Shown in pieces: positions 4,726-25,452 of a stretch of DNA of 25,573 nt. The position numbers were made by a program, and so were the translations under genes. The notes below the pieces were generated by a model that saw only the letters and a list, made by a program, of their open reading frames with translations, searched no databases and was not told where the DNA came from. The DNA comes from a virus, in the IMG/VR virus record IMGVR_UViG_3300028197_000140, positions 1 through 25,573 of that record, one strand, 5' to 3'. Within the stretch, counting starts at the first letter, position 1. Each line of letters begins with the position of its first letter.

Positions 4726-4986
4726 TTATTTGTCCTTACCTACAGTAACGACTAGTGTTTCTAAGTCGTCAAATTCATCTTGTACACGATCCCAGTCACC
4801 TTTATGAGCAACTTTAATCGCTTTATTAATCAAACTTGGCTTAATGTCAAGTTCTTCTGCTACTGCTTTCACAGTTTCTTTAAGACCTGTGCTTAGATCT
4901 TCAATTTCTTGCATAACTGTAGCGCCTTCGTTAACCAAACGTTCTAGTTTAGCCTTCTCGTCACCACCATATACTCGATCACTCAT
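4726..4986 (-). CDS. dsbA: DsbA-like dsDNA-binding protein (late transcription)
   Basis: An 86-aa protein resembling T4 DsbA (89 aa), a small double-stranded-DNA-binding protein that binds near late promoters and enhances late transcription. It is highly charged and predicted all-helical: a first helix around residues 9-42 (LERLVNEGATVMQEIEDL), then AEELDIKPSLINKAIKVAHKGDW, a helix-turn-helix-like segment seen in the marine homologues, and an acidic C terminus. ATG at 4986 follows AAGGAG at good spacing. The gene has its own consensus sigma70 promoter (5011-5039), so it is probably expressed early by host polymerase and could help switch the phage to late transcription from GATAAATA boxes elsewhere in the window (inference). 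Family assignment rests on pattern memory, not on a search. Confidence 0.75.
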   Translation of the reverse strand: MSDRVYGGDEKAKLERLVNEGATVMQEIEDLSTGLKETVKAVAEELDIKPSLINKAIKVAHKGDWDRVQDEFDDLETLVVTVGKDK

Positions 4987-5044: not shown

Positions 5045-5641
5045 TTATTTAACAAATGCACCAATTCTACCATGTATGTCTGGATATTGGCGATATTTAT
5101 AGCCAGTAGGTGGGTTAGTATCTTGTCCGAACCATACCGGAATAAATTCTGATATATTCCCTTCAAAATCTTCGTTGTGTCTTAGGTGTACTTCAATAAC
5201 TTTTCCGTCTATATACTCAACATTCATATATTCTCTATGTGAAAATGTTCGTAGTTCAAAAGGTAGTGATATTTCATCGTCAGTTTTAACCCATTTATCC
5301 CATTTTGTAAATGTATTATTTGATTTAAAACCTTCTACACATAGTATTTGATTTCCGTAGTTATAGTCAATGCTTAGGTGTCTTCCTTCAAACCATTCAC
5401 ACCAAAAATGTCCTACTGGAAGATGCATAGTTTCTTGTTCTATCCATATCTTTTGTGTTCCTAGTCCTAGGCCCATCATATTGACACAGGGACGAACACA
5501 ATACCAATTAGGTGTTGGTACATCTAGTCCTACTGGACCACTAATATATTTTAATTTACGGGAAAGTATAAGTTTGTCCATAACCCAAAGTTGGTCCGGA
5601 TCAATGTCGTGCCATACGAAGTCTTCAGCACTATCTTCCAT
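5045..5641 (-). CDS. Conserved marine T4-like phage protein, unknown function
   Basis: A 198-aa soluble protein with no signal peptide or membrane segment. It is rich in aromatic residues and glycines: GPVGLDVPTPNWYCVRP (36-52), MMGLGLGTQKIW (55-66), HFWCEWFEGRHLSIDY (78-93) and FIPVWFGQDTNPPTGYKYR near the C terminus. I recall similar proteins in T4-like marine phages without an assigned role. The glycine-rich loop followed by a W-C-E-W segment faintly suggests a ligand-binding or ATP-grasp-like fold, but I cannot support that. The ATG at 5641 begins 3 bases after the upstream stop with only a weak ribosome site. The gene ends just before the dsbA promoter, so it is the last member of the structural-type operon to its right. 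Confidence 0.8.
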   Translation of the reverse strand: MEDSAEDFVWHDIDPDQLWVMDKLILSRKLKYISGPVGLDVPTPNWYCVRPCVNMMGLGLGTQKIWIEQETMHLPVGHFWCEWFEGRHLSIDYNYGNQILCVEGFKSNNTFTKWDKWVKTDDEISLPFELRTFSHREYMNVEYIDGKVIEVHLRHNEDFEGNISEFIPVWFGQDTNPPTGYKYRQYPDIHGRIGAFVK

Positions 5642-5644
5642 GTG

Positions 5645-6460
5645 TTACATCTTTACACAGTTGTCTACAGTCTTGCCGCCCTTTTTCTTTGTTCCCATAC
5701 GTTTGTAACCCTTCCAACAAGCCTTGCCATCTACGCCTTTTTGCTTTTCTGTTTCTGGTAATGCATTGTATAATTTGTTACTCAAGTAATCTTCGTATGA
5801 TTCGTTTTCTGTAGTTTTGTCGTTATAACGTTTGTCGCCAGCTTTCATTCTTTTGTAAGCAGGTGTATTTAATTTCTTATCAGCGTCAGTAACATCCATC
5901 TTATCTGGGGTAGCCTTCTTCGGCTCTGGCTTTACTGATTCTGCAACTTTAGGATCGTTACAGTTACAATGCTTACAAGTAGGAGCACATTTGCAATCTT
6001 CTCTTTTAACATCTGCACCGCAACACTTGTCTGAACAATGTGTATCTTTTTCTGATTCTTTAATGTCTACTTTTTTAGGCTTGTCGTGCGTCCAACCTTT
6101 TTTTGCTAGGTCTATATGATCTTGTTCTTTGTTAGCTTTCTTACTTTTACCATCTTTATACATAGTATGTGGTTCAAATTTGTCAGCTTTTTTAGCTTCA
6201 GATACCTGTTCAAATTGTGTTTCATAATCTAAATGATGATATACACTACCTAAGTAGTCTGCGGCTTTAGTAATCTTTGCTTGTACCCAACCTTCAAGAC
6301 CTTGTTCTTCACTTACACCTTTAAGCATTTCGTGTAGTTTAATACCGTATTTTGCAATCTTGTATAAGTCGGCTCTAGCCATCTGTACTTCATGGTCTTG
6401 CTCAACCTTATAAGCCATGTCAGCTAATCCGTTTTCATTCAAGTCTTTTTCTCTCATCAT
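5645..6460 (-). CDS. Putative prohead-interior protein with Cys cluster
   Basis: A 271-aa protein of a kind I recall from T4-like marine phages. The N terminus has LNE (7-9), a candidate prohead-protease motif. A helical conserved domain spans about 14-80 (YKIAKYGIKLHEML, GWVQAKITKAADYLGSVYHH). A Lys/Asp-rich linker includes eight cysteines within residues 142-167, in CxxxCC, CxC and CxxCxC spacings, suggesting a metal-binding insert. The C terminus is basic with a cysteine pair (C248, C268) around KRMGTKKKGGK. Start: ATG ATG at 6460/6457; the second is better spaced from AAGGA. A GATAAATA box just upstream (6476-6483) suggests its own late promoter. Function unknown; a packaged or structural head role is inferred from neighbours. 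Confidence 0.8.
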   Translation of the reverse strand: MMREKDLNENGLADMAYKVEQDHEVQMARADLYKIAKYGIKLHEMLKGVSEEQGLEGWVQAKITKAADYLGSVYHHLDYETQFEQVSEAKKADKFEPHTMYKDGKSKKANKEQDHIDLAKKGWTHDKPKKVDIKESEKDTHCSDKCCGADVKREDCKCAPTCKHCNCNDPKVAESVKPEPKKATPDKMDVTDADKKLNTPAYKRMKAGDKRYNDKTTENESYEDYLSNKLYNALPETEKQKGVDGKACWKGYKRMGTKKKGGKTVDNCVKM

Positions 6461-6475
6461 ATTATCCTTATAATG

Positions 6476-6483
6476 TATTTATC
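6476..6483 (-). promoter_or_regulatory. T4-type late promoter box GATAAATA
   Basis: GATAAATA on the minus strand, close to the T4 late consensus TATAAATA, overlaps the stop codon of the 99-aa gene and lies 15 bases before the ATG at 6460. The resulting leader would be very short but still hold the ribosome site. The box matches those next to phoH exactly. The position is plausible but may be chance in AT-rich DNA. Confidence 0.45.
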
Positions 6484-6778
6484 TTTTGATAGTTTTGCCG
6501 CCCATGATATTGTTACTAATATCTAGTGCATTTTTAGCAGTTCCGTCTGAATTTTTCTTTTGTGGAGCCTTAGGAGCACCATATTTGTCTTTTCTCTTAG
6601 GCTTATGATATGCCGCATCTGGACTTGCTACTGTAGCTATATTACCTGCTGATGTTGCACCTGCTGTTGCAGTTTCCTTTACTGATTCTCCGGCATGTAT
6701 AGCGGCCATATGTTTTTTGTACTTTTTAGTACCTTTTTTATGTGGGCTTTTACCTTCGATAATCTCGTTAATTAACAT
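6479..6778 (-). CDS. Small basic putative prohead-interior protein
   Basis: A 99-aa, very basic, low-complexity protein. The N terminus reads MLINEIIEGKSP: I-N-E (3-5) and I-I-E followed by G (6-9). The second fits the T4 gp21 prohead-protease cleavage pattern [L/I]-x-E before a small residue. After it come Lys-rich stretches (HKKGTKKYKKH), an Ala/Thr-rich segment, and KPKRKDKYGAPKAPQKK. Charge and size resemble the DNA-associated internal proteins of T4 heads. The ATG at 6778 follows GAGGAA and overlaps the end of the 269-aa gene by 11 bases. No enzymatic motif is present. I recall similar small proteins in marine T4-like phages; the head-interior role is inferred. Confidence 0.75.
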   Translation of the reverse strand: MLINEIIEGKSPHKKGTKKYKKHMAAIHAGESVKETATAGATSAGNIATVASPDAAYHKPKRKDKYGAPKAPQKKNSDGTAKNALDISNNIMGGKTIKR

Positions 6779-7577
6779 TTAATTTCCTCTTTTTATCTTT
6801 ACGCAAATAGTCAATTAGTTTTTTACCGCCATAAAGTAATGCTACTACTGCCGCCGCTGGTAAAGCGTATTTTACAGCCATATTAGACATGTTTTGTATT
6901 GTAGATGGATTTACATTTCCGCCTGTAACTTTACTAATGCCATCTGCCCATTGTGAAGCTGTTTGCGGGTTTGAATTAGCCAATGCACTCGCCGCACCTT
7001 CATCTTTTACAATGTTAGGTAAGTTTGCTACTGCTGGTGGAATACCGCCACCGTCACCTGCATTTGGGTTATTATCCTGTCCAGTTTGTTTAGGTTTTAC
7101 AGGTGCTTTTGGAGTAACTTTTGGTGTTATTGCTGTTGTTACACCTCCAGGATTTCCACCGTCTCTAGGTTGTGTTACTGGTAACTCTTTAGGAGCATCG
7201 TTTGGTTTAGCAACAACATCGTTTGGTGCTACAGGAGCAGTCATACCCTTAAATTCAAAAGGAACTTCTGTTGATCCTGTAATATTCTGAAACATTTTTA
7301 GTAATTCTGGTGTAGGGCCTTTAGCTATACGCTGATTAAATTCTTTTGCCGCGGCGTCTGCTACTCCTCTATCTTTACCTTGTGCTATAAGTGAATTATA
7401 AATTTGTGATGCTGGACTCATATCACTATATGCTCCTGCTGGAGAAGGAGTTAATGCCCCAATAATAGCACTTGCTGGTCCACCGAGTGCTTTACCACCT
7501 AACCATTTTAACCCACCTAATATATCAAATTCATTTAACGGTGGTCTAATATCTGTTGTAAGTTCTCTTAATAACAT
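6768..7577 (-). CDS. Putative virion-associated protein with C-terminal membrane segment
   Basis: A 269-aa protein. The N terminus has L-R-E (3-5) and L-N-E (14-16), again the prohead-protease-like pattern. Residues 20-45 are Gly/Ala-rich and mildly hydrophobic. A Pro/Asn/Gly/Lys-rich disordered middle (about 115-185) has several PKxTPKAPVKPK-like runs. Near the C terminus is one hydrophobic segment (about 236-250), followed by LLYGGKKLIDYL and a very basic tail (RKDKKRK). That TM-YGGKK module recurs in the 691-aa and 64-aa proteins of this window. It could be an ejected protein acting at the host membrane, or an internal head protein (inference). The ATG at 7577 has AAAGG about 11 nt upstream and starts 4 bases after the 691-aa gene. 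Confidence 0.75.
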   Translation of the reverse strand: MLLRELTTDIRPPLNEFDILGGLKWLGGKALGGPASAIIGALTPSPAGAYSDMSPASQIYNSLIAQGKDRGVADAAAKEFNQRIAKGPTPELLKMFQNITGSTEVPFEFKGMTAPVAPNDVVAKPNDAPKELPVTQPRDGGNPGGVTTAITPKVTPKAPVKPKQTGQDNNPNAGDGGGIPPAVANLPNIVKDEGAASALANSNPQTASQWADGISKVTGGNVNPSTIQNMSNMAVKYALPAAAVVALLYGGKKLIDYLRKDKKRKLNVN

Positions 7578-7581
7578 ACTA

Positions 7582-9657
7582 CTATTTACCTTTCTTTTTA
7601 CGTCCAGACTTCATATTTGCACACCAGTGATACATTTTAGCACGTTCACCACTTGCGTTCTTTGCTTTCTTACGTAGTTCTGTGACACTACCGTTACAAC
7701 TAGCACCAGACTTCTTTACTCTTCCTGGCTTGCTTTTACCACTCTTCTTGCCATCAGCAAAGTTTTCTAATAAGTCTAGTACTTGATCAGTAGTATAAAG
7801 TCCACTTATAAGAGCCTCTTTTGCCATTTTAGTGGCAGTTGCGTACATAACAGCATCAGCATCTTTGCCGTAACGGTCTTTAAAGTCGCCTTTATTCTTC
7901 TTCATACCCTTGACGTTTTTTTCTTTTTTCTTTTCTTCGCCTTTGGTAAGAGTACGTTCTTCTACTTCTTTTTTAGTAATTTGTGGAAGTTCAGCTCTAG
8001 CATAGTTCTCTTTTACAGATTTAAGTTTTTTAAGATCTTTATCTGATTTAGGTGCATAACCTTTTAAAATTTCTTCTAGTTCTTCTTCTGATATTGTATC
8101 AGGATCTTTATCTTTTAACACATTATAAAGTTTTTTCCCACCATATAAAGCAACAACACCTAATGAAACAGGTATTGAGTATGCGTATAACCAAGATAAG
8201 CCTTTTAAAAAAGATGCTAAAATTGGTCCTGTCCATGGTAAACTAAATGTACCTAAACTTGTTTTAGGATTACGTCTAATAAATCTTCCTAAAAATTTAA
8301 TTGAAGCTAAACCAAAACGGAAAGCAGGAATAACCCATTCTTTTAGTTGAATATCTTCTTCAACTTCTTTTTTACGGCCTAATGAATCGTGATCATATCT
8401 CCACATTTTGCCAGGCTTAACAAGTTGCATTTCTTTTTCTAATTCTGATTCTCTGCGAATTAACTTTTTTAGTTCGTCTCTTCTATCTTTCCAATTTGGA
8501 TCATTGTAAATATCATCAATTGCTTTTTGAACAGCAAAGAGTTCATCTGCTCTGCCTTCTTCTACAGGCTCTTGCATGTGTTGCTTAATATCTTTTGCAG
8601 TTCTTTCGAACTTGTGATCTTTGTGTTTAAATCCAATACCACCTGCGGCTTCCCAACTAGCAATATTTTTACCAAAGTCGTCAATTAATATGTTAGGTGT
8701 GCCATCTTTATTTGTAGCATATTGTGCTTTGTTACTGTCAATGATTACACTACTTGGCATAAAGTCTTGTAGATTATTTTTAATCCATTCTTTCTTTTGT
8801 GGAATACTATTTTTATCTCCTGGTAAAGGACTGCTTAATATATTATAAGATCCTTTTACTTGTTTAATAAGAGATAGTAAATTATCTGCATTACTAGTTT
8901 TTGGTAAATTAATCCAGAAGTCTTTTTTATCTTTAATTTTCTGTAGTGCAGGTTCTAAATCATCGCCCTTTATTTGTCGCCAGTCTTTACCTGTTAGCTT
9001 AGTCCAAGATCCAAAAAAGTCTGCTAATACTCCGTCCATGTCAACAAATATTTGGCTTGTACTAGCTATTTCGCCCAATTCTTCTTTCATATTAGCATAG
9101 TATAACATACTTTCATCGGTGTTGTCAACTAATAATTTTTGAATTTGTCTTAAAAGTGGTATTGTTTCGGTAGGGAATTTGTTTTTTTGTATAAATGATA
9201 TAAACATGTTATAAGAATTATTCAAGTCTCTAATAAACTTTTTAGGATCTTGTTTTGCTTGAATTACTTTACCTATGTGTCTAATTCTTTGGTTCTGAGA
9301 TTTCCATGGAAATTGCCTGCCAACTGTTCTTTTCCATATTGCTTCGGCTCTTGCTTCTAATTCTAGTGCTTGTCCAATATGTAAAGCTGGATTTTTAGAT
9401 TCAGCCAAACCTAAGTTGAATAATACATTTGTTTTAGAACCTTTTACCTTTTTTGATAGTGTAGGTGGGCGTCCATCTTTGTCTACTTTGTTACCAAACT
9501 TAGCGGCTTGCTTCTTAATACCATCAACACCGACATCTGCTGTAGTGTTAACACCTTTTACAATACGTCCACCATTTTCGTGTATACGAAGATAGTGTTT
9601 AAAACTTTTATTTTTAGGAACTTTATTTTCGAGATCTTTTATGTTATAAAATTTCAT
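7582..9657 (-). CDS. Multidomain virion-type protein with HAD 5'-nucleotidase-like domain
   Basis: A 691-aa multidomain protein. Residues 20-30 carry a candidate cleavage motif (I-H-E, 25-27). A HAD-like domain spans about 202-345: nucleophile motif DMDGVLAD (206-213), motif II serine in LSSP (274-277), a lysine near 289, and the DD pair in LIDDFG (D326-D327). This is the layout of the small 5'(3')-deoxyribonucleotidase-like HAD phosphatases. Then come a charged helical stretch (380-440), hydrophobic segments (about 442-460 and 474-507) ending in ALYGGKKLY, a long Lys/Glu linker, and a basic C-terminal module with C654 and C679. The ATG at 9657 overlaps the upstream stop (ATGA) with GAGGA before it. 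HAD assignment is good; a role as packaged or injected enzyme is inferred. Confidence 0.8.
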   Translation of the reverse strand: MKFYNIKDLENKVPKNKSFKHYLRIHENGGRIVKGVNTTADVGVDGIKKQAAKFGNKVDKDGRPPTLSKKVKGSKTNVLFNLGLAESKNPALHIGQALELEARAEAIWKRTVGRQFPWKSQNQRIRHIGKVIQAKQDPKKFIRDLNNSYNMFISFIQKNKFPTETIPLLRQIQKLLVDNTDESMLYYANMKEELGEIASTSQIFVDMDGVLADFFGSWTKLTGKDWRQIKGDDLEPALQKIKDKKDFWINLPKTSNADNLLSLIKQVKGSYNILSSPLPGDKNSIPQKKEWIKNNLQDFMPSSVIIDSNKAQYATNKDGTPNILIDDFGKNIASWEAAGGIGFKHKDHKFERTAKDIKQHMQEPVEEGRADELFAVQKAIDDIYNDPNWKDRRDELKKLIRRESELEKEMQLVKPGKMWRYDHDSLGRKKEVEEDIQLKEWVIPAFRFGLASIKFLGRFIRRNPKTSLGTFSLPWTGPILASFLKGLSWLYAYSIPVSLGVVALYGGKKLYNVLKDKDPDTISEEELEEILKGYAPKSDKDLKKLKSVKENYARAELPQITKKEVEERTLTKGEEKKKEKNVKGMKKNKGDFKDRYGKDADAVMYATATKMAKEALISGLYTTDQVLDLLENFADGKKSGKSKPGRVKKSGASCNGSVTELRKKAKNASGERAKMYHWCANMKSGRKKKGK

Positions 9658-9869
9658 TTTTTACGTCCTCGAAATGATACAGGACCATTAAGGTATGGTT
9701 TAGTAAACCAAAGTTTAAACCAGTCAGCATCTCCAGGCTGGATATTTAATTTTTTTTGTTTGTCTTTGAGTGCTTGTGCAGTATAACTAATATTTTCTAA
9801 ACTAACTGGTTGATAACCTTTGAATTCGTTTATACCTGCTAATTTTTTAAGCTGTTGAATCTCATCCAT
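9654..9869 (-). CDS. Small conserved phage protein, unknown function
   Basis: A 71-aa protein. The N terminus reads LKKLAGINEF (7-16), with I-N-E (13-15) fitting the candidate prohead-protease pattern. The middle is polar and helical. The C terminus has PGDADWFKLWFTKPYLNGP (45-63), a Trp/Phe-rich motif I recall from small proteins of marine T4-like phages. A related LAGA segment occurs at residues 171-174 of the 289-aa protein upstream. The ATG at 9869 lies 3 bases after the nucleotidyltransferase stop with only a weak ribosome site (GAGTGG). The 3' end overlaps the next gene by 4 bases. Function unknown; it may be a small structural or scaffold component. Confidence 0.75.
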   Translation of the reverse strand: MDEIQQLKKLAGINEFKGYQPVSLENISYTAQALKDKQKKLNIQPGDADWFKLWFTKPYLNGPVSFRGRKK

Positions 9870-9872
9870 ATC

Positions 9873-10832
9873 TTAACCACTCTTTACAACTAACTCGAGG
9901 CCTAAGTTTTTAAATAAACCTGTAATACCAGAAACTGATTTTAATGCTTTATCCATCAATTGTTGATTATCTTGTGGTTGATTGTCATAGAATGCTATAA
10001 ACCTTTTTGCTGTTTGTGGATCGATATATACTTGTCCACCAGTTGCGGCCGCACCATCTCCAGTATCTTTATAGCTTAATGGAAATGATGTATTGTCCTT
10101 ACGCATTGCAATATTATTGATAACATCTAACTTAGGGCGTTGTTGCTTAACAGCATATTCGTCTATATCTAGTTCATCTAATACTTCGTCAGGAGTAGTT
10201 AGAACTTCGAATGAATCATGTTCGTGTTTAGGATCATCTGCTTCTTCCACAGGATCAACACCCATAGCACCTTGAACTGATTTAAATAATTTATCTGCTA
10301 GATCTTGTTTTGGTACGCCTTGCTTGAATGAATCAAAGTCGTTATTAAGTGCCGCAGATCTCATTTTACTTGCACTCATACCTTCAGCACCGTCAGCATC
10401 TGGGTCTCGGTCACCTGCACTAATAACACTAATGCTATTAAATTTGTACGGAACAACACCTGACTTATCGGCTACACCGTTATACTGATTAAAAAGTTTA
10501 TCAAATCCTTCTACTCTATCAGATCCTGCTACATAGATAACATCAGAGTAACCTAGTTCTTGTAGCTTTTGTAACATTTGTATAGGTGTCCGTACTTCCG
10601 AATGACCTACAGTAATATTTGGAAAAAACGACTTGGTAAATGCAAGTTTAGTATCAAAGTCTAAAGGATCTGTTTTAGCTTTTTGAGTCTGTGATAAAAA
10701 AAGATAAGGGTCACCATCTTTTGATAGTATTGTATTAACAAGTTTTTGATGACCAATAGTTGGAGGATTTAGTCTACCAAATGCAACTACTGCTGTTTTA
10801 CCTTCAGCTTCAAATAAATTTCGTAGGCGCAT
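9873..10832 (-). CDS. Cytidylyltransferase-like nucleotidyltransferase with capsid-targeting-like N terminus
   Basis: A 319-aa protein. Residues 12-190 form a nucleotidyltransferase domain of the HIGH superfamily: AFGRLNPPTIGH (17-28, the T/HxGH site at 25-28), a GSD loop (103-105), and SASKMR (153-158), matching the ISSTxxR-like second motif. These enzymes transfer AMP or CMP to phosphorylated substrates such as NMN, pantetheine phosphate or glycerol phosphate; the substrate is not clear. The remaining 130 residues are an acidic linker and an unrecognised domain. The N terminus L-F-E then A (6-9) is a very good match to a T4-type prohead-protease site. The ATG at 10832 has GGAGG at 6-nt spacing and overlaps the previous gene by 23 bases. 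Enzyme fold likely; packaging is inferred. Confidence 0.8.
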   Translation of the reverse strand: MRLRNLFEAEGKTAVVAFGRLNPPTIGHQKLVNTILSKDGDPYLFLSQTQKAKTDPLDFDTKLAFTKSFFPNITVGHSEVRTPIQMLQKLQELGYSDVIYVAGSDRVEGFDKLFNQYNGVADKSGVVPYKFNSISVISAGDRDPDADGAEGMSASKMRSAALNNDFDSFKQGVPKQDLADKLFKSVQGAMGVDPVEEADDPKHEHDSFEVLTTPDEVLDELDIDEYAVKQQRPKLDVINNIAMRKDNTSFPLSYKDTGDGAAATGGQVYIDPQTAKRFIAFYDNQPQDNQQLMDKALKSVSGITGLFKNLGLELVVKSG

Positions 10833-11151
10833 TCATTTCCTCCGGTGGATTCTTTTCGTAGTCTACTATGTTTTGTGCAAGTTCTGCTTTTTCTTCGGGT
10901 GTTATAAGCGTCTTAGGATCGACTGACAGATCATATTTTAATACATAATGGTTACAACCAGCATTAATCATTGGCATTATATGCCCTTGTATAACATCTT
11001 CGTTATAATCACTTTTACATTTTTCGATTGCTGGGAGGTAATGCTTTCTATAGAACATAGTATCATTGAGCATATGATATTGTAAGTCATCACATACATC
11101 AAACGGTAATTTATCTACATCGTCTTGTTTAAAAAATTCATCTATTCTCAT
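10810..11151 (-). CDS. Conserved phage protein, unknown function
   Basis: A 113-aa acidic, soluble protein. The N terminus MRIDEFF has I-D-E (3-5). A conserved-looking core, DDLQYHMLNDTMFYRKHYLP (about 22-41), is followed by MINAGCNHYVLKYDL, then a charged C-terminal helix. I recall similar short proteins in T4-like marine phages with no assigned role. The frame opens further upstream at 11208, but that part lies inside the previous gene; the ATG at 11151 sits one base after the previous stop with AGGAAA upstream and is preferred. The 3' end overlaps the nucleotidyltransferase gene by 23 bases and contains its GGAGG ribosome site, so the two are probably translationally coupled. Confidence 0.75.
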   Translation of the reverse strand: MRIDEFFKQDDVDKLPFDVCDDLQYHMLNDTMFYRKHYLPAIEKCKSDYNEDVIQGHIMPMINAGCNHYVLKYDLSVDPKTLITPEEKAELAQNIVDYEKNPPEEMNAPTKFI

Positions 11152-11152
11152 A

Positions 11153-12022
11153 TTACCATTTCCTACATGACCAATAACGTGCTTTAGTACGTGGTCCTGG
11201 GTTATCACAATTATGTCTTGCTCTAAAGCTCTTACGTCTTTTTGGATTATTCTTTTTAATGCTCATTGCTTTACCTTTAACACTTGAGCCACCATGTCCA
11301 AAGTTTACTTTTTTAATGTTACCCGTCTTAGGGTCTTTTACATATACTTTAAATTTCTTAACATCACCTTGCATTGGTTTACCAAGTTTAACTTTACGTC
11401 CTTGGTACTCTGCTTCATCCATAATGTCATCTTCATTGTACCACATTTCACCATATGCTTTGTAGAAGTCATCATCATCGTCATATGTTTCGTCAATACT
11501 TGCACCAGCAAGTGTTTTAATTCTATCAAGTTCTAAGCTCTCGTTATCATCATCAGGTAAATTCTTTGCTTGTGCATATGCTTTTTTAAGCAAACCCATG
11601 TTTATTTTCTCATCAGCTTTTATATCAATTCCCTTATGAAAGAATCCTTGAATGTCAGAGTAATCAGAATCCATATAACCTGCCATATCTAAATCATGTA
11701 ATAAATTTCCTAATGCAAAACGCATCCTTTCACTTGTATACCCACCATCTTTTTTAGCATCATTGTACATGTCTACTAAATGTTTCATTACATTTGCTTT
11801 TACTCTGCGTGGATCAAACTCATCATCTTCTACACCTTCTTCACCGATAGATTCTTTTTCAGCTTTACTATATTTGTCTTTAATGCGTCCTAACTCTTCT
11901 TGACTAGCACCTTCACGTCCTGCTTTAGCGGCTTTGTCCATATATTCTTTACCATGTTTTTTCACACCAGTATAGTATTGTAAGCCACTTTCTTCTAGAT
12001 AATCTTTAAATGTCTTAGTCAT
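11153..12022 (-). CDS. Putative internal head protein with T4 IP-like N terminus and basic Cys-pair C terminus
   Basis: A 289-aa protein. The first residues, MTKTFKDYLEES, look like the capsid-targeting N terminus of T4 internal proteins (T4 IPI begins MKTYQEFIAEA); L-E-E then S at 9-12 would be the cleavage site. A conserved segment follows (YYTGVKKHGKEYMDKAAKAG, 16-35). An acidic middle has a DDDDD run (181-185). The basic C-terminal domain (about 220-289) has KFKVYVKDPKTGNIKKVNFG and ends RARHNCDNPGP and ARYWSC (C272, C286), a module I recall at the end of several virion proteins of marine T4-like phages. The ATG at 12022 has AAAGGA at good spacing; a longer frame start at 12097 lies inside the upstream gene and is rejected. 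Exact function unknown. Confidence 0.8.
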   Translation of the reverse strand: MTKTFKDYLEESGLQYYTGVKKHGKEYMDKAAKAGREGASQEELGRIKDKYSKAEKESIGEEGVEDDEFDPRRVKANVMKHLVDMYNDAKKDGGYTSERMRFALGNLLHDLDMAGYMDSDYSDIQGFFHKGIDIKADEKINMGLLKKAYAQAKNLPDDDNESLELDRIKTLAGASIDETYDDDDDFYKAYGEMWYNEDDIMDEAEYQGRKVKLGKPMQGDVKKFKVYVKDPKTGNIKKVNFGHGGSSVKGKAMSIKKNNPKRRKSFRARHNCDNPGPRTKARYWSCRKW

Positions 12023-12032
12023 CGTTTTTCCT

Positions 12033-13751
12033 TTATCTTGATTTAGAATTGTAACCCGGAGTCGGTGTTTGTTGGTCATCATTCCAATTAAAGCCACCGC
12101 CAGTTATTACATTTCCACTCTTCATTTGTGTCATTAAGTCATTAGCATCCTTGAATATTGTATAGTCTAATGTATCTGTTCTTAATAACATTACAGTTGT
12201 AATACCATCTGCTAAATGATAGCTAGAATACGCAATTTTAGAATATGCAATATTCATTGTTACCATGTCAACTGTCGTATATATTCTACCGTCAGGGTAT
12301 TTCTCCGACGGTGGCTCTTTTTCTTGGTTAATAGCTTCCATAATTAGTTTCTTTGGATCAAAAGGAACATGATGTTTATTAGGAGTACCATCTTGATTAG
12401 TTGCTGGTTTACCTAAAGCATCATAATTTTGTACTAGTGCTTTAATTGTTGAAATAAACAAATCAGCTGTTTGCTCTGGAGTTGCATAAGGTTCTATTAC
12501 TTCAGCATTAAGAGCGTCAAAGCCTTTCTTGTTCCAGTTATATTTGCTACCTTCTTTGGCTTTGCCTTTAATAACATTATATTGATTACCGTTATACTTA
12601 TTTGCTTTTATTTTTATAATTTTACCATCTTTTTGTTGAACATTAATTGTTGCATCTTTGTCTGCTGATTGCATTATTTCGTTTATCTTCGCTGACCATA
12701 CTGCCCAGCCAGTAGTTGCTTTTGCAATAGATTTACTATTAAAACGTCCACCTGTTTTTGCACTAGCTTTAATTTCTATTTCCTCATCACCAATCTTAAG
12801 ATCACCCTTCTTGCCTTTTTCAGCAGGGTTACCCATCATTGATAATGCCATTTCACCTGGACCAATTGCACCTGATGTTGTACCCGGAGAGTAACTAAAA
12901 ATATTTTCTTGTACAAAAACATCAAATACTTTTTTATACTCTGGATTAACATGATCCTTAATATTACCACTAGGAGTTGAAATAACTTTAAGCATATTAA
13001 TTACTTTACCATCTACACATGCTTGTAAAAATCCTTTAATTTCTTCTTGTGTAACATCACTACCTTCTTGCATATCAAGTATTTTTCCAAACAATGCTTG
13101 TTTAAGAGTTTTTGTAAACTTCTCTGCATTAACAGACATTTTTTTATAAGAAGATCTATCTCTAGAGGTCATAGAACTTGTATCTACATCATTTTGATAT
13201 CCTTGTACTTTGTTACCTAGTGTAACTAATACACCTGTTACTTCTTTAACAAAGTTAATTGCTTCGTCACGTTCAGAACGAGCTGAATCACGTTGTGCTC
13301 TTAACATTTCAAAGTCTTTTGTTAAGTTGTCTAAATTTTTAGTAAAGTTACTCAAAACATCTTGCTTTTGTTTTTCGTCCATTGGAATAGTTTCAAGCAT
13401 TTTAATATTCGTTGCTAACTCCTCAAGATCTACTTGTGCCTTTGCGTCAGCTTTTTCAAGTTCTTTAACTGAGTATAATTTTTGTTGTACGTTTGGGTTT
13501 GCTTTTGCTTCAACAGTTGTATCTGTAGGTACATCTCCCTTTGCTTTTACTACAAAGTTTTTTACTATGTCATTAAGTTTACTAATTCTATCATATAGAT
13601 CTAATTTTTCTTGATTTTTTTCAGCAGGAATCTCAGACATAGCTTTACTAATAGTTTGTATGTCATGAACAGCATGTTGGATTTGCAGGCCTTCGTTAGC
13701 TTCTGCTAATTGCGATTCATTAATAGATTTCTTTATATTCCAAAATCTCAT
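12033..13751 (-). CDS. Coiled-coil protein with PD-(D/E)XK nuclease-like domain
   Basis: A 572-aa protein. The N terminus carries I-N-E then S (10-13) and L-A-E then A (15-18), the second an excellent prohead-protease-type site. Residues about 30-225 are charged and helical with coiled-coil character (RAQRDSARSERDEA, 151-164). Residues about 295-345 show a PD-(D/E)XK nuclease signature: E300 in GPGEMAL, D317 in KGDL, E326-x-K328 in EIEIKAS, then GGR and a basic region. This is the usual order E, D, ExK of restriction-endonuclease-like folds. The C-terminal 200 residues are not recognised. ATG at 13751 overlaps the upstream stop by one base (TAATG). If the motif is real, this is a nuclease encoded among virion genes; structural annotation only is the fallback. 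Confidence 0.75.
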   Translation of the reverse strand: MRFWNIKKSINESQLAEANEGLQIQHAVHDIQTISKAMSEIPAEKNQEKLDLYDRISKLNDIVKNFVVKAKGDVPTDTTVEAKANPNVQQKLYSVKELEKADAKAQVDLEELATNIKMLETIPMDEKQKQDVLSNFTKNLDNLTKDFEMLRAQRDSARSERDEAINFVKEVTGVLVTLGNKVQGYQNDVDTSSMTSRDRSSYKKMSVNAEKFTKTLKQALFGKILDMQEGSDVTQEEIKGFLQACVDGKVINMLKVISTPSGNIKDHVNPEYKKVFDVFVQENIFSYSPGTTSGAIGPGEMALSMMGNPAEKGKKGDLKIGDEEIEIKASAKTGGRFNSKSIAKATTGWAVWSAKINEIMQSADKDATINVQQKDGKIIKIKANKYNGNQYNVIKGKAKEGSKYNWNKKGFDALNAEVIEPYATPEQTADLFISTIKALVQNYDALGKPATNQDGTPNKHHVPFDPKKLIMEAINQEKEPPSEKYPDGRIYTTVDMVTMNIAYSKIAYSSYHLADGITTVMLLRTDTLDYTIFKDANDLMTQMKSGNVITGGGFNWNDDQQTPTPGYNSKSR

Positions 13752-18178: not shown

Positions 18179-18568
18179 CTATTTGCTACGTCTACTTGAT
18201 CCGGTATATAATCCGAACCATGCCGCTCCAGCACCTACAACAATACTAATTAAACCTGATTGTTCTAAAGTTGGATTAGGCAATTCCATATACCAAATTA
18301 CACATCTGTATAGTAGTATAATATATGTTGTAATAAAGATACGTGGAAAAATTCTCCAAGCATCTACAGCCCTTGCCATGTGTATAATCCTAACGTAAGG
18401 ATTAGGACCTAGGTCTTTAACGCTAGTATCAACTTCTAAGTCAAGTTTAACTTTCCTTGTAGTTGAATCGCTAGTTGAAACTACTTGTGCTTCGTACTTT
18501 TGTTCTTCGTACTTAATAGGTTCTTTTTGAGCTACTGGTGCTAAGTCTTCTGGTTTTTTTCTAGGCAT
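18179..18568 (-). CDS. Two-pass membrane protein, holin candidate
   Basis: A 129-aa protein: a charged cytoplasmic N-terminal 60 residues (Lys/Glu-rich), then a motif HMARAVDAWRIFPRIF leading into a first membrane segment (about 75-94, ITTYIILLYRCVIWYM). A short loop (ELPNPTLEQ) and a second glycine/alanine-rich segment (about 104-122, LISIVVGAGAAWFGLYTG) follow, ending in a short basic tail SSRRSK. A membrane hairpin with a charged C-terminal tail is typical of holins, and it lies in the same operon as the endolysin and spanins, but its long N-terminal domain is unusual. ATG at 18568 overlaps the upstream stop by one base (TAATG), with GAGGGA upstream. Holin is an inference; other membrane roles are possible. 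Confidence 0.7.
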   Translation of the reverse strand: MPRKKPEDLAPVAQKEPIKYEEQKYEAQVVSTSDSTTRKVKLDLEVDTSVKDLGPNPYVRIIHMARAVDAWRIFPRIFITTYIILLYRCVIWYMELPNPTLEQSGLISIVVGAGAAWFGLYTGSSRRSK

Positions 18569-19026
18569 TACTGTTTCCCTCTTTTTATATTTTCTATTGC
18601 TTCTTTGTTTCTAGCAATACTATCACTGTTATTGTGTATAGTTGCATCTTGTGCTTTATCAATAAGACCTTGTAGTCTACGTCCTTTTTCAATATCAGTA
18701 TCTAAGTGCAAATCTTTATTAATAAGTTTTTCTAACTTTAACATACCTATACGATCGTTAGAAACATATCGCCAAGTATATCCGTGTTCTCCATATAATC
18801 CAAATACAGTTTCTCTTAACCCTATTTTTACTATTATAGATTGTTCTCCGTCTAGTACTACTTCATCACCTTCGTTAAATGCAGGATTAAATCTAAATTT
18901 TAAACCTTGCATAAAGTTTGTAGCAAAATCTTTAAACCAGAACGCGGCACTAATACTAATAAGTATAGCAATCCAAGGAACTAGCATTGATGCTACATCC
19001 AGTCCTAATTTATCAAATTCTTCCAT
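18568..19026 (-). CDS. One-pass membrane protein with MscS-like beta domain
   Basis: A 152-aa protein. A short N terminus is followed by one membrane segment (about 11-30, VASMLVPWIAILISISAAFW), then FKDFATNFMQGLKFRFNPAFNEGDEVVLDG (31-60) and IVKIGLRETVFGL..GYTWRYVSNDRI. This order (amphipathic pore-like helix, x-N-x3-G, P-F-x3-GD-x-V, Ig-R-T, x-V-S-N) follows the TM3 end and beta domain of MscS mechanosensitive channels, but the first two MscS transmembrane helices and the cytoplasmic cage are missing. The C terminus (95-152) is charged and helical. It overlaps both neighbours by one base (TAATG). It might form pores or sense tension during lysis, or protect against osmotic swelling; all are inferred. 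The MscS likeness needs profile confirmation. Confidence 0.7.
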   Translation of the reverse strand: MEEFDKLGLDVASMLVPWIAILISISAAFWFKDFATNFMQGLKFRFNPAFNEGDEVVLDGEQSIIVKIGLRETVFGLYGEHGYTWRYVSNDRIGMLKLEKLINKDLHLDTDIEKGRRLQGLIDKAQDATIHNNSDSIARNKEAIENIKRGKQ

Positions 19027-19133
19027 TACTTACAATGCTCACATTTACAATCGCCACATACATCGTTAGCACAGTTATCGCATGTCTTGCCACAGTGATG
19101 TTCGCAATGACATTTTTCACATTTACAGTCCAT
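19026..19133 (-). CDS. 35-aa cysteine-rich metallothionein-like peptide
   Basis: A tiny gene of 36 codons. The peptide begins MDCKCEKCHCEHHCGKTC and ends CGDCKCEHCK: 11 cysteines and 5 histidine/charged metal-friendly contacts in 35 residues, in CxC and CxxC spacings typical of metallothioneins. It should bind several Zn, Cd or Cu ions in the cytoplasm (inference). It is a real gene by context: its ATG at 19133 overlaps the TAA of the 97-aa gene by one base, and its own TAA overlaps the ATG of the MscS-like gene by one base, so it sits precisely in a coupled chain. A similar cysteine cluster is found inside the 271-aa protein at 5645-6460. It is shorter than most bacterial metallothioneins (about 55 aa). 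Confidence 0.8.
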   Translation of the reverse strand: MDCKCEKCHCEHHCGKTCDNCANDVCGDCKCEHCK

Positions 19134-19456: not shown

Positions 19457-19609
19457 CTAAAAAGAACAGGATAACCTGGCGCCGGGTGTTACCTCAACGT
19501 TATTAGAATCTATTTTTACTTTGGGATCTGGTTTAGCTTCGCAATCTGCGGGTCTTGTACAGCTATTCAGCAGTATCGTCAGCAGGATTAGGCTTAACAG
19601 CTTCTTCAT
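19457..19609 (-). CDS. Second small lipoprotein, overlapping the o-spanin gene
   Basis: A 50-aa lipoprotein in a different frame from the gene before it. Residues 1-16 are a signal peptide (MKKLLSLILLTILLNS) with lipobox L-N-S-C at 14-17; the mature 34 residues include C23 and C48, which could form a disulfide. The ATG at 19609 lies inside the end of the o-spanin gene (47-base overlap) and the frame continues about 105 bases past that gene's stop, where no other gene exists, so it explains an otherwise empty gap. The ribosome site is weak. Nested small lipoproteins are typical of Rz1 o-spanins, so it may be the true Rz1-like partner or an accessory. The terminator-like hairpin lies within its last codons. 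Confidence 0.72.
   Translation of the reverse strand: MKKLLSLILLTILLNSCTRPADCEAKPDPKVKIDSNNVEVTPGARLSCSF
19459..19487 (-). terminator. Terminator-like hairpins with T-run
   Basis: Reading the minus strand, a GC-rich palindrome (19474-19487, centred on GGCGCC) is followed by CAGG-TTAT-CCTG (19467-19478, overlapping it) and then TTCTTTTT. The second, short stem with T-run looks like an intrinsic terminator; the GC block stands out in AT-rich DNA. It lies at the end of the 50-aa lipoprotein gene and just before a late-type promoter box, which fits a unit boundary. Confidence 0.5.
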
Positions 19610-19943
19610 AATATAAAATAATTGCCTTTTGCTGTTCTATATAACGTCTAAGTTCAGCAAAGTTTTTTGATAGGTTTTCGTAGTCTTTAACACTAATAGC
19701 AATGTAAGAATCGCCGCCGTTCTTTGCCTCAAACTCTTTTTTAAATTCTTCTAAGTTTTCTTCAGGTGATACAACATAAATTTTTATGTCGTTCATTTGC
19801 ACAGGCTTAGGCCATGGAACAATAGGAACTACAGTTTTTTCAATTTTAGTAACTATTTTAATTTCTGCGTCTGGTCTAAAAGTACTACAACTACTCAGTA
19901 GGAGTATTACTAGTAATAGACTCGAGATCTTTCCAAAGTTCAT
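19563..19943 (-). CDS. o-spanin-type outer membrane lipoprotein (Rz1-like)
   Basis: A 126-aa lipoprotein. Signal peptide at residues 1-18 with lipobox LLSSC (the cysteine at about 19), then a Pro/Val-rich part (VVPIVPWPKPVQMNDIKIYVV), and a helical C terminus with KDYENLSKNFAELRRYIEQQ and YYEEAV. The polyproline-like stretch and the position, starting out of frame within the end of the i-spanin gene (53-base overlap), are the hallmarks of Rz1 o-spanins, which link to the i-spanin across the periplasm and fuse the two membranes at lysis. It is longer than classical Rz1 (about 60 aa). Start: the ATG at 19943 has AGGGA at good spacing; the frame opens earlier at 19970 but that would bury the signal peptide. 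Confidence 0.75.
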   Translation of the reverse strand: MNFGKISSLLLVILLLSSCSTFRPDAEIKIVTKIEKTVVPIVPWPKPVQMNDIKIYVVSPEENLEEFKKEFEAKNGGDSYIAISVKDYENLSKNFAELRRYIEQQKAIILYYEEAVKPNPADDTAE

Positions 19944-20277
19944 CTGTTTTTCCCTGCATTCGTTTTTCAATTAAGCCTGGCTTTTTATTAGCCAAGTGTG
20001 TCAAGTTGTGCTTGTTTAGAGTAGCACGAAGTTCATCTCCGTACTGCTCTGATCTATCTAATTCTTTATTAAGGTTATCAGACAAAGTGTTTAGTCTAGC
20101 ATTATCTGCTTTAAGTGTTGCAATACTTTGTTCACTAGTTTCAACTGCAACTTCTAGTTTAGCATTATTTAATTTTTGTATTTCTAAGTTCTTTTGTAGG
20201 GTATTTACATAGGCATATGCACCGCCAACTCCGGCAAGAATAATAAACACTAATGCTATTTTAATCGTACTAAACAT
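19891..20277 (-). CDS. i-spanin (Rz-like), inner membrane
   Basis: A 128-aa protein with one N-terminal membrane anchor (about 5-23, IKIALVFIILAGVGGAYAY) and a long periplasmic coiled coil (about 25-90; repeated LNNAKLEVAVETSEQSIATLKADNARL pattern). The C terminus reads KKPGLIEKRM..ELWKDLESIT, typical of Rz-like proteins in T4-type marine phages. It should form the spanin complex with the overlapping lipoprotein gene product, disrupting the outer membrane after the endolysin has acted. ATG at 20277 begins 8 bases after the endolysin stop; GGGG of the preceding codons may serve as ribosome site. Assignment rests on architecture, gene order and overlap, and is good. Confidence 0.85.
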   Translation of the reverse strand: MFSTIKIALVFIILAGVGGAYAYVNTLQKNLEIQKLNNAKLEVAVETSEQSIATLKADNARLNTLSDNLNKELDRSEQYGDELRATLNKHNLTHLANKKPGLIEKRMQGKTDELWKDLESITSNTPTE

Positions 20278-20285
20278 ATTCTTAT

Positions 20286-21134
20286 TTACCCCAGTAACTT
20301 TCCCAGTGTGTTTGGTCCTACAATGCCGTCAGCTGTCAAACCGTTTTCAGCTTGCCATGTTTTAACTGCACGTTCTGTACCTGGTCCAAAATCTCCGTCA
20401 GCACTTAAACCTAATGCTTCTTGTACTGCTTTGACTGTTGCACCTTTTGAACCTTTACGTACTGTTTCGGACATATCTACTGCTGGTGGTGTATAGTGTC
20501 CTCCTAGAACTTCTAAAGCATGTTCATAATGATTAATCCTATCTTCTAATCCTATGTATCCGCCGTTAATACGCTTTGTTAAAGTTTTAATATCTTGTGA
20601 ATCTGCATATTTGTTAAGACTGTTAGTGTCCCAATACCAACATGCTGAATCAAGTGCGCCTTTCTTAGTACGCACATAATCTGTTGCTTCTTCTGCTGAC
20701 ATATCAACAGTTTTGCCAAATTCTGTATAATTGTATCTACCAGTTAATTGAAGTATGCCACCACCGCGAAACTTCCAACCGTCGCCGCTATTAGTATCGT
20801 TGTTGTCCATACGTGAAGCGTAAATAACATTCGCAATTCTTTCTGGTTGTCTATGGTAATCTTCTGCATCTCGACCTGCTCTTTTAAAATATTTAGGAAA
20901 AATAGAATCAAGTGCTTTTGCACTATAGTTTAGATTCTCTGTTAGTACTTTAAAGTTGTTCGATTCATGACCACATTGTGCTACGAAAGCCGCTACGCGG
21001 TCTTCTGTTGTAACATCATATAATGGCAAGATTTCACACATTGCTTCATACCATTCGTCTGCTTCGGAATTGCCTTTAAGCATTTCCCTCACATGATCTA
21101 CTGTAAAATTAAATTTAAAGTGTTCTGCTGACAT
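20286..21134 (-). CDS. Endolysin: GH19 lysozyme/chitinase-like plus peptidoglycan-binding domain
   Basis: A 282-aa cell-wall hydrolase. The N-terminal GH19-type domain (about 10-205) has FVAQCGHESNNF with the likely catalytic E57, a second acidic candidate E66, and GWKFRGGGILQLTGRYNY (119-136), a GH19 hallmark. A Pro-rich hinge at about 210-218 leads to a C-terminal PG_binding_1 domain (about 219-282) with VRKGSKGATVKAVQEALGL, DGDFGPGTERAVKTWQ and ADGIVGPNTLGKL. It should cleave the glycan strand of peptidoglycan at lysis. There is no signal peptide, so it needs a holin. ATG at 21134 follows AAAGGG. The gene is directly followed by the i-spanin and o-spanin genes, forming a lysis cassette. 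Confidence 0.93.
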   Translation of the reverse strand: MSAEHFKFNFTVDHVREMLKGNSEADEWYEAMCEILPLYDVTTEDRVAAFVAQCGHESNNFKVLTENLNYSAKALDSIFPKYFKRAGRDAEDYHRQPERIANVIYASRMDNNDTNSGDGWKFRGGGILQLTGRYNYTEFGKTVDMSAEEATDYVRTKKGALDSACWYWDTNSLNKYADSQDIKTLTKRINGGYIGLEDRINHYEHALEVLGGHYTPPAVDMSETVRKGSKGATVKAVQEALGLSADGDFGPGTERAVKTWQAENGLTADGIVGPNTLGKLLG

Positions 21135-25101: not shown

Positions 25102-25452
25102 TTAATCTCCTTTACCTGGTTCAAGTGATAGTAATTCTCTCTTATTAGGTTTACCTGCCCATTCCTCTGCATCTTTAGGAACATCATCGGATCTTACTTC
25201 TGTAATATTAGGCCATTTATTAGACATGTCTGTATTAATGTTCATCCAATATTCTAATTCTGTACCTTGTAAAGTACCATCTGGAACAATAGCATCAACA
25301 GGGCATTCAGGTTCACATACACCACAATCAATACATTCGTCTGGATTAATTACAAGCATATTTTCGCCTTCGTAAAAACAGTCAACTGGGCAAACTTCTA
25401 CACAGTCCATGTGTTTACATTTTATACAATCTTCAGTAACGAGGTACGTCAC
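25102..25452 (-). CDS. fdxA: 7Fe ferredoxin, FdxA/FdI type
   Basis: A 116-aa bacterial-type ferredoxin. Nine cysteines (9, 12, 17, 21, 25, 40, 43, 46, 50) have exactly the spacing of Azotobacter FdI shifted by one: C9, C17 and C50 would hold a [3Fe-4S] cluster, and C21, C40, C43 and C46 a [4Fe-4S] cluster. Motifs [20 protein letters not shown] and [16 protein letters not shown], and the C-terminal WPNIT, are those of alpha-proteobacterial FdxA. It is a low-potential electron carrier in the cytoplasm. Cyanophage ferredoxins are plant-type 2Fe, so this type suggests acquisition from a proteobacterial host. The GTG start at 25452 overlaps the stop of the upstream gene (GTGA). Confidence 0.93.

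Follow-up and report, generated by a model that had tools for sequence, protein, structure and literature searches.

Does an open reading frame of 35 residues, 11 of them cysteines, encode a functional peptide when it lies amid phage lysis genes and, if so, what might such a peptide do? The frame in question (19026-19133, minus strand; MDCKCEKCHCEHHCGKTCDNCANDVCGDCKCEHCK) is found in a 25,573-base IMG/VR virus record, which we analysed over its whole length and refer to as the window. A first-pass annotation had described a metallothionein-like peptide gene, a rarity in phages, proven genuine by one-base overlaps with both neighbours and possibly concerned with metal released at lysis or with donating zinc to metalloproteins. 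Translation bore out the length and the cysteine content (31% Cys, with three CxC motifs and no aromatic residue), and both junctions indeed read TAATG, a one-base overlap on each side (Table 1). Because the antisense frames of these phage contigs also contain short Cys-rich ORFs by chance alone, such overlaps alone are little proof of a gene. The ORF is nonetheless a real gene, conserved and under selection, a conclusion that we draw from the conserved family uncovered by pattern scans and not from the overlaps.

Table 1. Coordinates of the peptide gene, its neighbours and related loci in the window.
Feature	Position	Strand	Remarks
CL3 homologue (phrog_3577); in relatives it often follows the peptide gene immediately	5045..5641	-	3 bases from 5645-6460
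CL0 homologue; in relatives the commonest immediate upstream neighbour of the peptide gene	5645..6460	-	without peptide gene here
Downstream gene, 152-aa membrane protein	18568..19026	-	ATG overlaps peptide TAA by one base; no Pfam match
Cys-rich peptide gene	19026..19133	-	35 aa; constant C5 C8 C10(C/H) H13 C14(or C12) C18 C21 C26 C29 C31 C34; N23 D24; V/I at 25
Upstream gene, 97-aa protein with N-terminal membrane segment	19133..19426	-	TAA overlaps peptide ATG by one base
Lysis cassette upstream	19457..21134	-	endolysin 20286-21134, i-spanin 19891-20277, o-spanin 19563-19970, small lipoprotein 19457-19609; phrog_181, phrog_739, phrog_812

The genes of this region run in the order endolysin, i-spanin, o-spanin, small lipoprotein, 97-aa protein, Cys peptide, 152-aa and 129-aa membrane proteins, DnaJ and a gene whose product we take to be ClpA-type. 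Two membrane proteins thus follow the spanins (18179-19026, minus strand): the middle part of the 152-aa protein recalls, in our reading, the MscS beta domain, and the 129-aa protein (phrog_10198, function unassigned in PHROGs) could be a holin.

A conserved peptide family in marine phage contigs

We scanned IMG/VR with a degenerate DNA pattern that imposes only C18, C21, D24, C26, C29, C31 and C34 (numbering of the window peptide) and obtained at least 116 matching viral ORFs. Among the matches listed, 102 of 116 ORFs also display the non-imposed C5, C8, C or H at position 10, H13 and N23 (one of the 102, L111, lacks C5), whereas the remaining 14 have at most one non-imposed feature each, and this gap argues that the former constitute a family. 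Searching other viral contigs for the Cys pattern, as the first-pass annotation had proposed, accordingly yielded at least 100 relatives, a lower bound for IMG/VR, and at least 88 distinct family peptides were collected. No frameshift or stop codon was met at the same place in relatives, where the slot is simply empty, but the collection counts depend on exact patterns that find intact copies only, so the absence of broken copies is no evidence. The median dN/dS is 0.27 (1015 pairs), or 0.52 with the shared Cys codons left out, and a Shine-Dalgarno-like GGAG precedes many of the family starts. That the window frame is a chance product, as short Cys-rich ORFs in antisense can be, is refuted by a large conserved family with these properties and retains practically no probability.

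Applied to 84,980 cellular genomes, this pattern matched 44 ORFs, 43 of which were rejected as antisense or unrelated. The single true member lies on a contig from a Pirellulales MAG (L223), no further member was detected among 198 other genomes of its phylum, and L223 may be a mis-binned phage contig. The family has no credible match in Pfam, PHROGs or NCBIfam; it is hitherto unnamed and, as no entry for it was found, its members have probably been missed or left as hypothetical in annotations. A tblastn search of annotated phages with the window peptide and a longer member returned no match, possibly owing to low-complexity masking, and nothing relevant on phage metallothioneins or knuckles was found within the limited set of literature searched. 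Contrary to the supposed rarity in phages, this family is widespread and common in marine phage contigs, although we found no cultured phage carrying the peptide.

Conserved cysteine and histidine positions

Across the family C5, C8, H13, C18, C21, N23, D24, C26, C29, C31 and C34 are constant, with V or I at position 25, and the length of the core is unchanged in 87 of 88 distinct peptides. Some of these residues were fixed by the search pattern; C5, C8, position 10, H13 and N23 were not, and it is they that test the conservation without bias. All 11 putative ligand positions are filled in each of the 87 ungapped members, by nine Cys, one Cys-or-His and one His. At position 10, 45 of the 87 have C and the other 42 have H, while C14, found in 79, is replaced by C12 in all eight members that lack it; such swaps are the exchange expected of metal ligands. 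The total number of cysteines per member ranges from 9 to 14, the core is devoid of aromatic residues in 68 of 88 members, and the net charge has a median of -2 and is zero or negative in 86% of members. A structural model of the window peptide, computed without metal and not relied on here, displayed no secondary structure (pLDDT 78, pTM 0.43) and gave no match with Foldseek.

A subgroup of members (L091, L100, L115, L118, L121, L146, L158, L173 and L177) ends in a C-terminal tail, W..(A/Q/V/C)DSG.E.G(F/L), that is absent from every other protein in the fetched loci; a docking or degradation signal is a possible interpretation of this tail.

Comparison with metallothioneins and zinc knuckles

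With its small size, about 30% Cys, CxC and CxxC motifs and few aromatic residues, along with its 11 constant ligand positions, the peptide is metallothionein-like by sequence, and to this extent the first-pass annotation was right. It is, however, no member of the bacterial metallothioneins, and its relatives are zinc-finger-like phage proteins (see below). The PF02069 profile, which in a positive control gave matches in S. elongatus and, within one cyanobacterial class, in 80 of 116 genomes, recognised 0 of 79 family members at E<=1, and an hhalign comparison between the peptide family (A1) and 26 bacterial metallothioneins gathered with PF02069 (A2) returned a probability of 0.7% (E 0.08). 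As profile search and profile comparison were both negative, membership in PF02069 was rejected. Like SmtA and BmtA of that family, the peptide is small and Cys-rich, and the window peptide and part of its family have C.C..C.C near the N-terminus, but the other Cys are spaced differently and both the KCAC start and the long spacer are missing. The alpha domain of mammalian metallothionein also has 11 Cys in about 30 residues, as in the window peptide, yet in the phage family certain fixed positions have His in place of Cys, and Pfam scans gave no sequence relation of the family to mammalian metallothionein. The likeness to SmtA extends to ligand number, since the SmtA core is Zn4Cys9His2, i.e. 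eleven ligands (PMC10119931), and that paper and its reference 46 describe SmtA as a metallothionein whose four-metal cluster encloses a zinc finger.

The constant residues C5, C8, H13 and C18 match exactly the C-x2-C-x4-H-x4-C spacing of the CCHC zinc knuckle, and the best PDB profile matches of the peptide are AIR2 and retroviral nucleocapsid knuckles, at E-values (~0.07-0.1) that are not significant. If the likeness reflected function, C5-x2-C8-x4-H13-x4-C18 would contact ssDNA or RNA as in a retroviral nucleocapsid protein. The peptides are acidic, though, and most cores are without the base-stacking aromatics, so that the basic and aromatic residues with which a knuckle touches nucleic acid were not found; moreover, five more Cys follow the knuckle-like segment, and the additional Cys at positions 10, 12 and 14 are foreign to knuckles. 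We consider nucleic-acid binding of this kind improbable.

Relation to a phage zinc-finger-like family

On the evidence of profile comparison, the peptide family is related by descent to a small phage family of 40-50 aa (A3) with the arrangement C..CG..[ST]HC, loop, then [VI]C..C.C..C. The two were aligned by hhalign with a probability of 96% and a score of 43.7, compared to maxima of 24.3 in 100 column shuffles and 21.6 in 50 shuffles in which the Cys columns were kept fixed. Proteins listed as hypothetical in two cultured Pelagibacter phages, HTVC008M (AGE60383.1) and Mosig (QOI69074.1), belong to A3, and in L127, L159 and L170 the A3 gene lies directly downstream of the peptide gene and overlaps it, a further small Cys4 protein with weak zinc-ribbon matches being encoded upstream of the peptide in this group.

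Both families share C..C-x4-HC in the N-terminal part and [VI]C..C.C..C in the C-terminal part. By contrast, the C18..C21.NDV segment of the peptide corresponds in A3 to a loop of ~15-25 residues that is predicted to form a beta hairpin; the constant set is 7 Cys plus 1 His in A3 versus 9 Cys plus 2 in the peptide, and the Gly that follows the second Cys in the A3 motif is present in only 46 of 87 peptide members. An AlphaFold2 model of an A3 member (pLDDT 79, pTM 0.44) placed strands at 17-22 and 28-34 and a helix at 40-48, a predicted knuckle-hairpin-helix order like that of a treble clef, and comparison of this model with the PDB (Foldseek, VIA) gave no significant match, the top rows being ribosomal proteins at E ~0.5. 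Because it is without the hairpin loop, the peptide is best regarded, on sequence and model, as a relative of A3 and not as an A3 member. It may have evolved from a small phage zinc finger or share an ancestor with one.

The usual locus adjoins DNA polymerase

The position of the gene in relatives bears on the proposed link to lysis. In 70 of 127 loci the peptide gene lies at most 6 kb upstream, and in the same direction, of homologues of window genes 5045-5641, 4726-4986 or DNA polymerase (1097-3766), and in 48 of the 127 it follows homologues of 5645-6460 or its neighbours. The usual home of the gene is thus between internal-head-type genes and DNA polymerase, and the lysis-cassette site is exceptional. 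In the window this home site is empty and the peptide gene sits 13 kb away, within the lysis cassette. In near relatives of the window lysis genes, the 97-aa and 152-aa genes are usually adjacent, with no peptide gene between them. Of 37 records of this kind, 9 contain a copy of the peptide gene, in most cases a long way from the cassette; the L024 copy occupies a different slot within it. A lysis-time function tied to the spanin and endolysin cassette, such as handling metal released at lysis, would accord with the gene position in the window and in L024, yet most relatives with the cassette do without the gene and, where present, it is elsewhere. This synteny, with the usual locus beside DNA polymerase, largely refutes the role in lysis, which we dropped as very improbable.

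Other settings include ribonucleotide reductase operons (the L127, L159 and L170 group) and genes that we take to be neck-like or baseplate-like. In L127, L152, L156, L159, L170, L187 and L194, genes for a class II-type ribonucleotide reductase, the Cys4 protein, the Cys peptide, A3 (in three of them) and a PDDEXK-type nuclease are tightly packed or overlapping. Metalloproteins are encoded beside the peptide in a few cases, with a Cu/Zn-SOD-domain protein in 3 contigs and an IscU/NifU_N homologue in 2. The former is a large protein encoded just upstream of the peptide (L087:1997-4216, plus strand; also L079 and L085), with a Cu/Zn superoxide dismutase insert (PF00080, E 1.5e-45) beside a ParB-like part; the flanks of the L087 protein resemble the window protein 7582-9657, which has a deoxyribonucleotidase domain instead. 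The latter, an Fe-S scaffold homologue (PF01592, E 2.7e-52), is encoded 16 bases downstream of the Cys peptide gene in L177 and occurs also in L201.

The DNA polymerase of the window phage has at most ~50% identity to that of any phage record compared. The nearest DNA polymerases are those of the jumbo phages Phosso, Atu_ph07 and Vibrio 2.275.O, and the peptide is absent from all three. Many proteins of the window module 5645-13751 (minus strand) start with short motifs (such as MLLRELTTDI, MLINEIIEGK, MRLRNLFEAE and MKFYNIKDLE) that to us recall T4 capsid-targeting sequences, and these proteins may be packaged, injected enzymes. The protein 5645-6460 contains near 5998 a second Cys-rich motif, CSDKCCG-x6-C-x-C-x3-CKHCNC, which is spaced unlike the 35-aa peptide and is also found in similar phage proteins of L114, L207, L212, L167, L176, L270 and L271 (5 distinct versions, 8 loci). 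Elsewhere in the window (25102-25452, minus strand) a 4Fe-4S-type ferredoxin with DUF3470 is encoded, which is FdxA-like.

On the basis that the N-termini of its usual neighbours recall, as we read them, such capsid-targeting sequences, and that one of them has a Cu/Zn-SOD domain, the peptide itself could be packaged as an internal head protein and, once inside the host, carry metal or contribute to an antioxidant function linked to Cu/Zn-SOD. The peptide lacks such an N-terminal motif, however, and its gene is also found beside neck-like, baseplate-like, lysis and ribonucleotide reductase genes, which leaves a packaged virion component with a small chance.

Discussion

The reading that we favour, tentatively, is that of a zinc-finger-related mini-protein that works like a small metallothionein, as a zinc store or donor. 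From the sequence we infer metal binding, zinc as the metal, a stoichiometry of four and the store or donor role. With 11 Cys/His ligands in 30 residues and no hydrophobic core, the 35-residue cytoplasmic peptide would need metal in order to fold, with most probably some four Zn(II) bound by the 11 fixed ligands as a single polynuclear thiolate core; a CxxCxND segment, which adds ligands, would stand in place of the long A3 loop. Made along with neighbouring phage genes through coupled translation, it would hold zinc as thiolate during infection and give it to newly made zinc proteins or, alternatively, keep zinc freed from host proteins harmless. The agreement between its eleven ligands and the Zn4Cys9His2 count of SmtA favours this reading, as do the ligand positions filled throughout the family, the Cys content with its CxC motifs, the relation to A3 and the metalloproteins encoded beside some copies. 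Several observations count against it: N23, D24 and V/I25 are constant yet non-ligand, a constancy that a pure metal sponge would not require; the exact CCHC spacing of C5, C8, H13 and C18 fits ordinary, separate zinc sites; the A3 relatives resemble zinc fingers, proteins that typically serve to bind a partner; and the metalloprotein neighbours stem from only two or three independent phage lineages.

Nearly as likely, and ranking close behind, is that the peptide serves as a dedicated zinc-finger adaptor with two or three separate zinc sites, whose N-D-V/I patch would bind one phage or host protein involved in polymerase, head or transcription functions. The relation to zinc-finger-like A3, the constancy of the non-ligand N23, D24 and V/I25, the invariant core length and a usual home adjoining DNA polymerase all speak for such an adaptor, and a precedent exists in small phage zinc-finger proteins of the TraR/lambda Orf73 type that bind and reprogram RNA polymerase (PMC9239242). 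Conversely, eleven ligands in 30 residues exceed the need of two or three mononuclear sites with distinct folds, the surface is variable except for N-D-V/I, and the gene moves between loci and is missing from many close relatives.

Should the store or donor reading hold, the peptide might be a phage-born metallothionein, independent of known metallothionein families: a zinc finger of marine T4-like phages would have lost its loop and gained ligands to become an 11-ligand Zn-thiolate store or donor, with the ancestral-type finger still adjoining it in some phages. We regard this scenario as speculative and rather doubtful. The family is a rare instance of a metallothionein-like peptide whose sequence sets it next to a zinc-finger relative, so that a transition from finger to metal cluster can be tested with two peptides, 35 and 50 residues long, that are accessible by synthesis. 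In surface seawater zinc is in short supply, yet phages employ zinc proteins in replication, transcription and nucleotide metabolism. If the peptide encoded by so widespread a phage gene does hold zinc, phages would be managing their metal supply in the course of infection.
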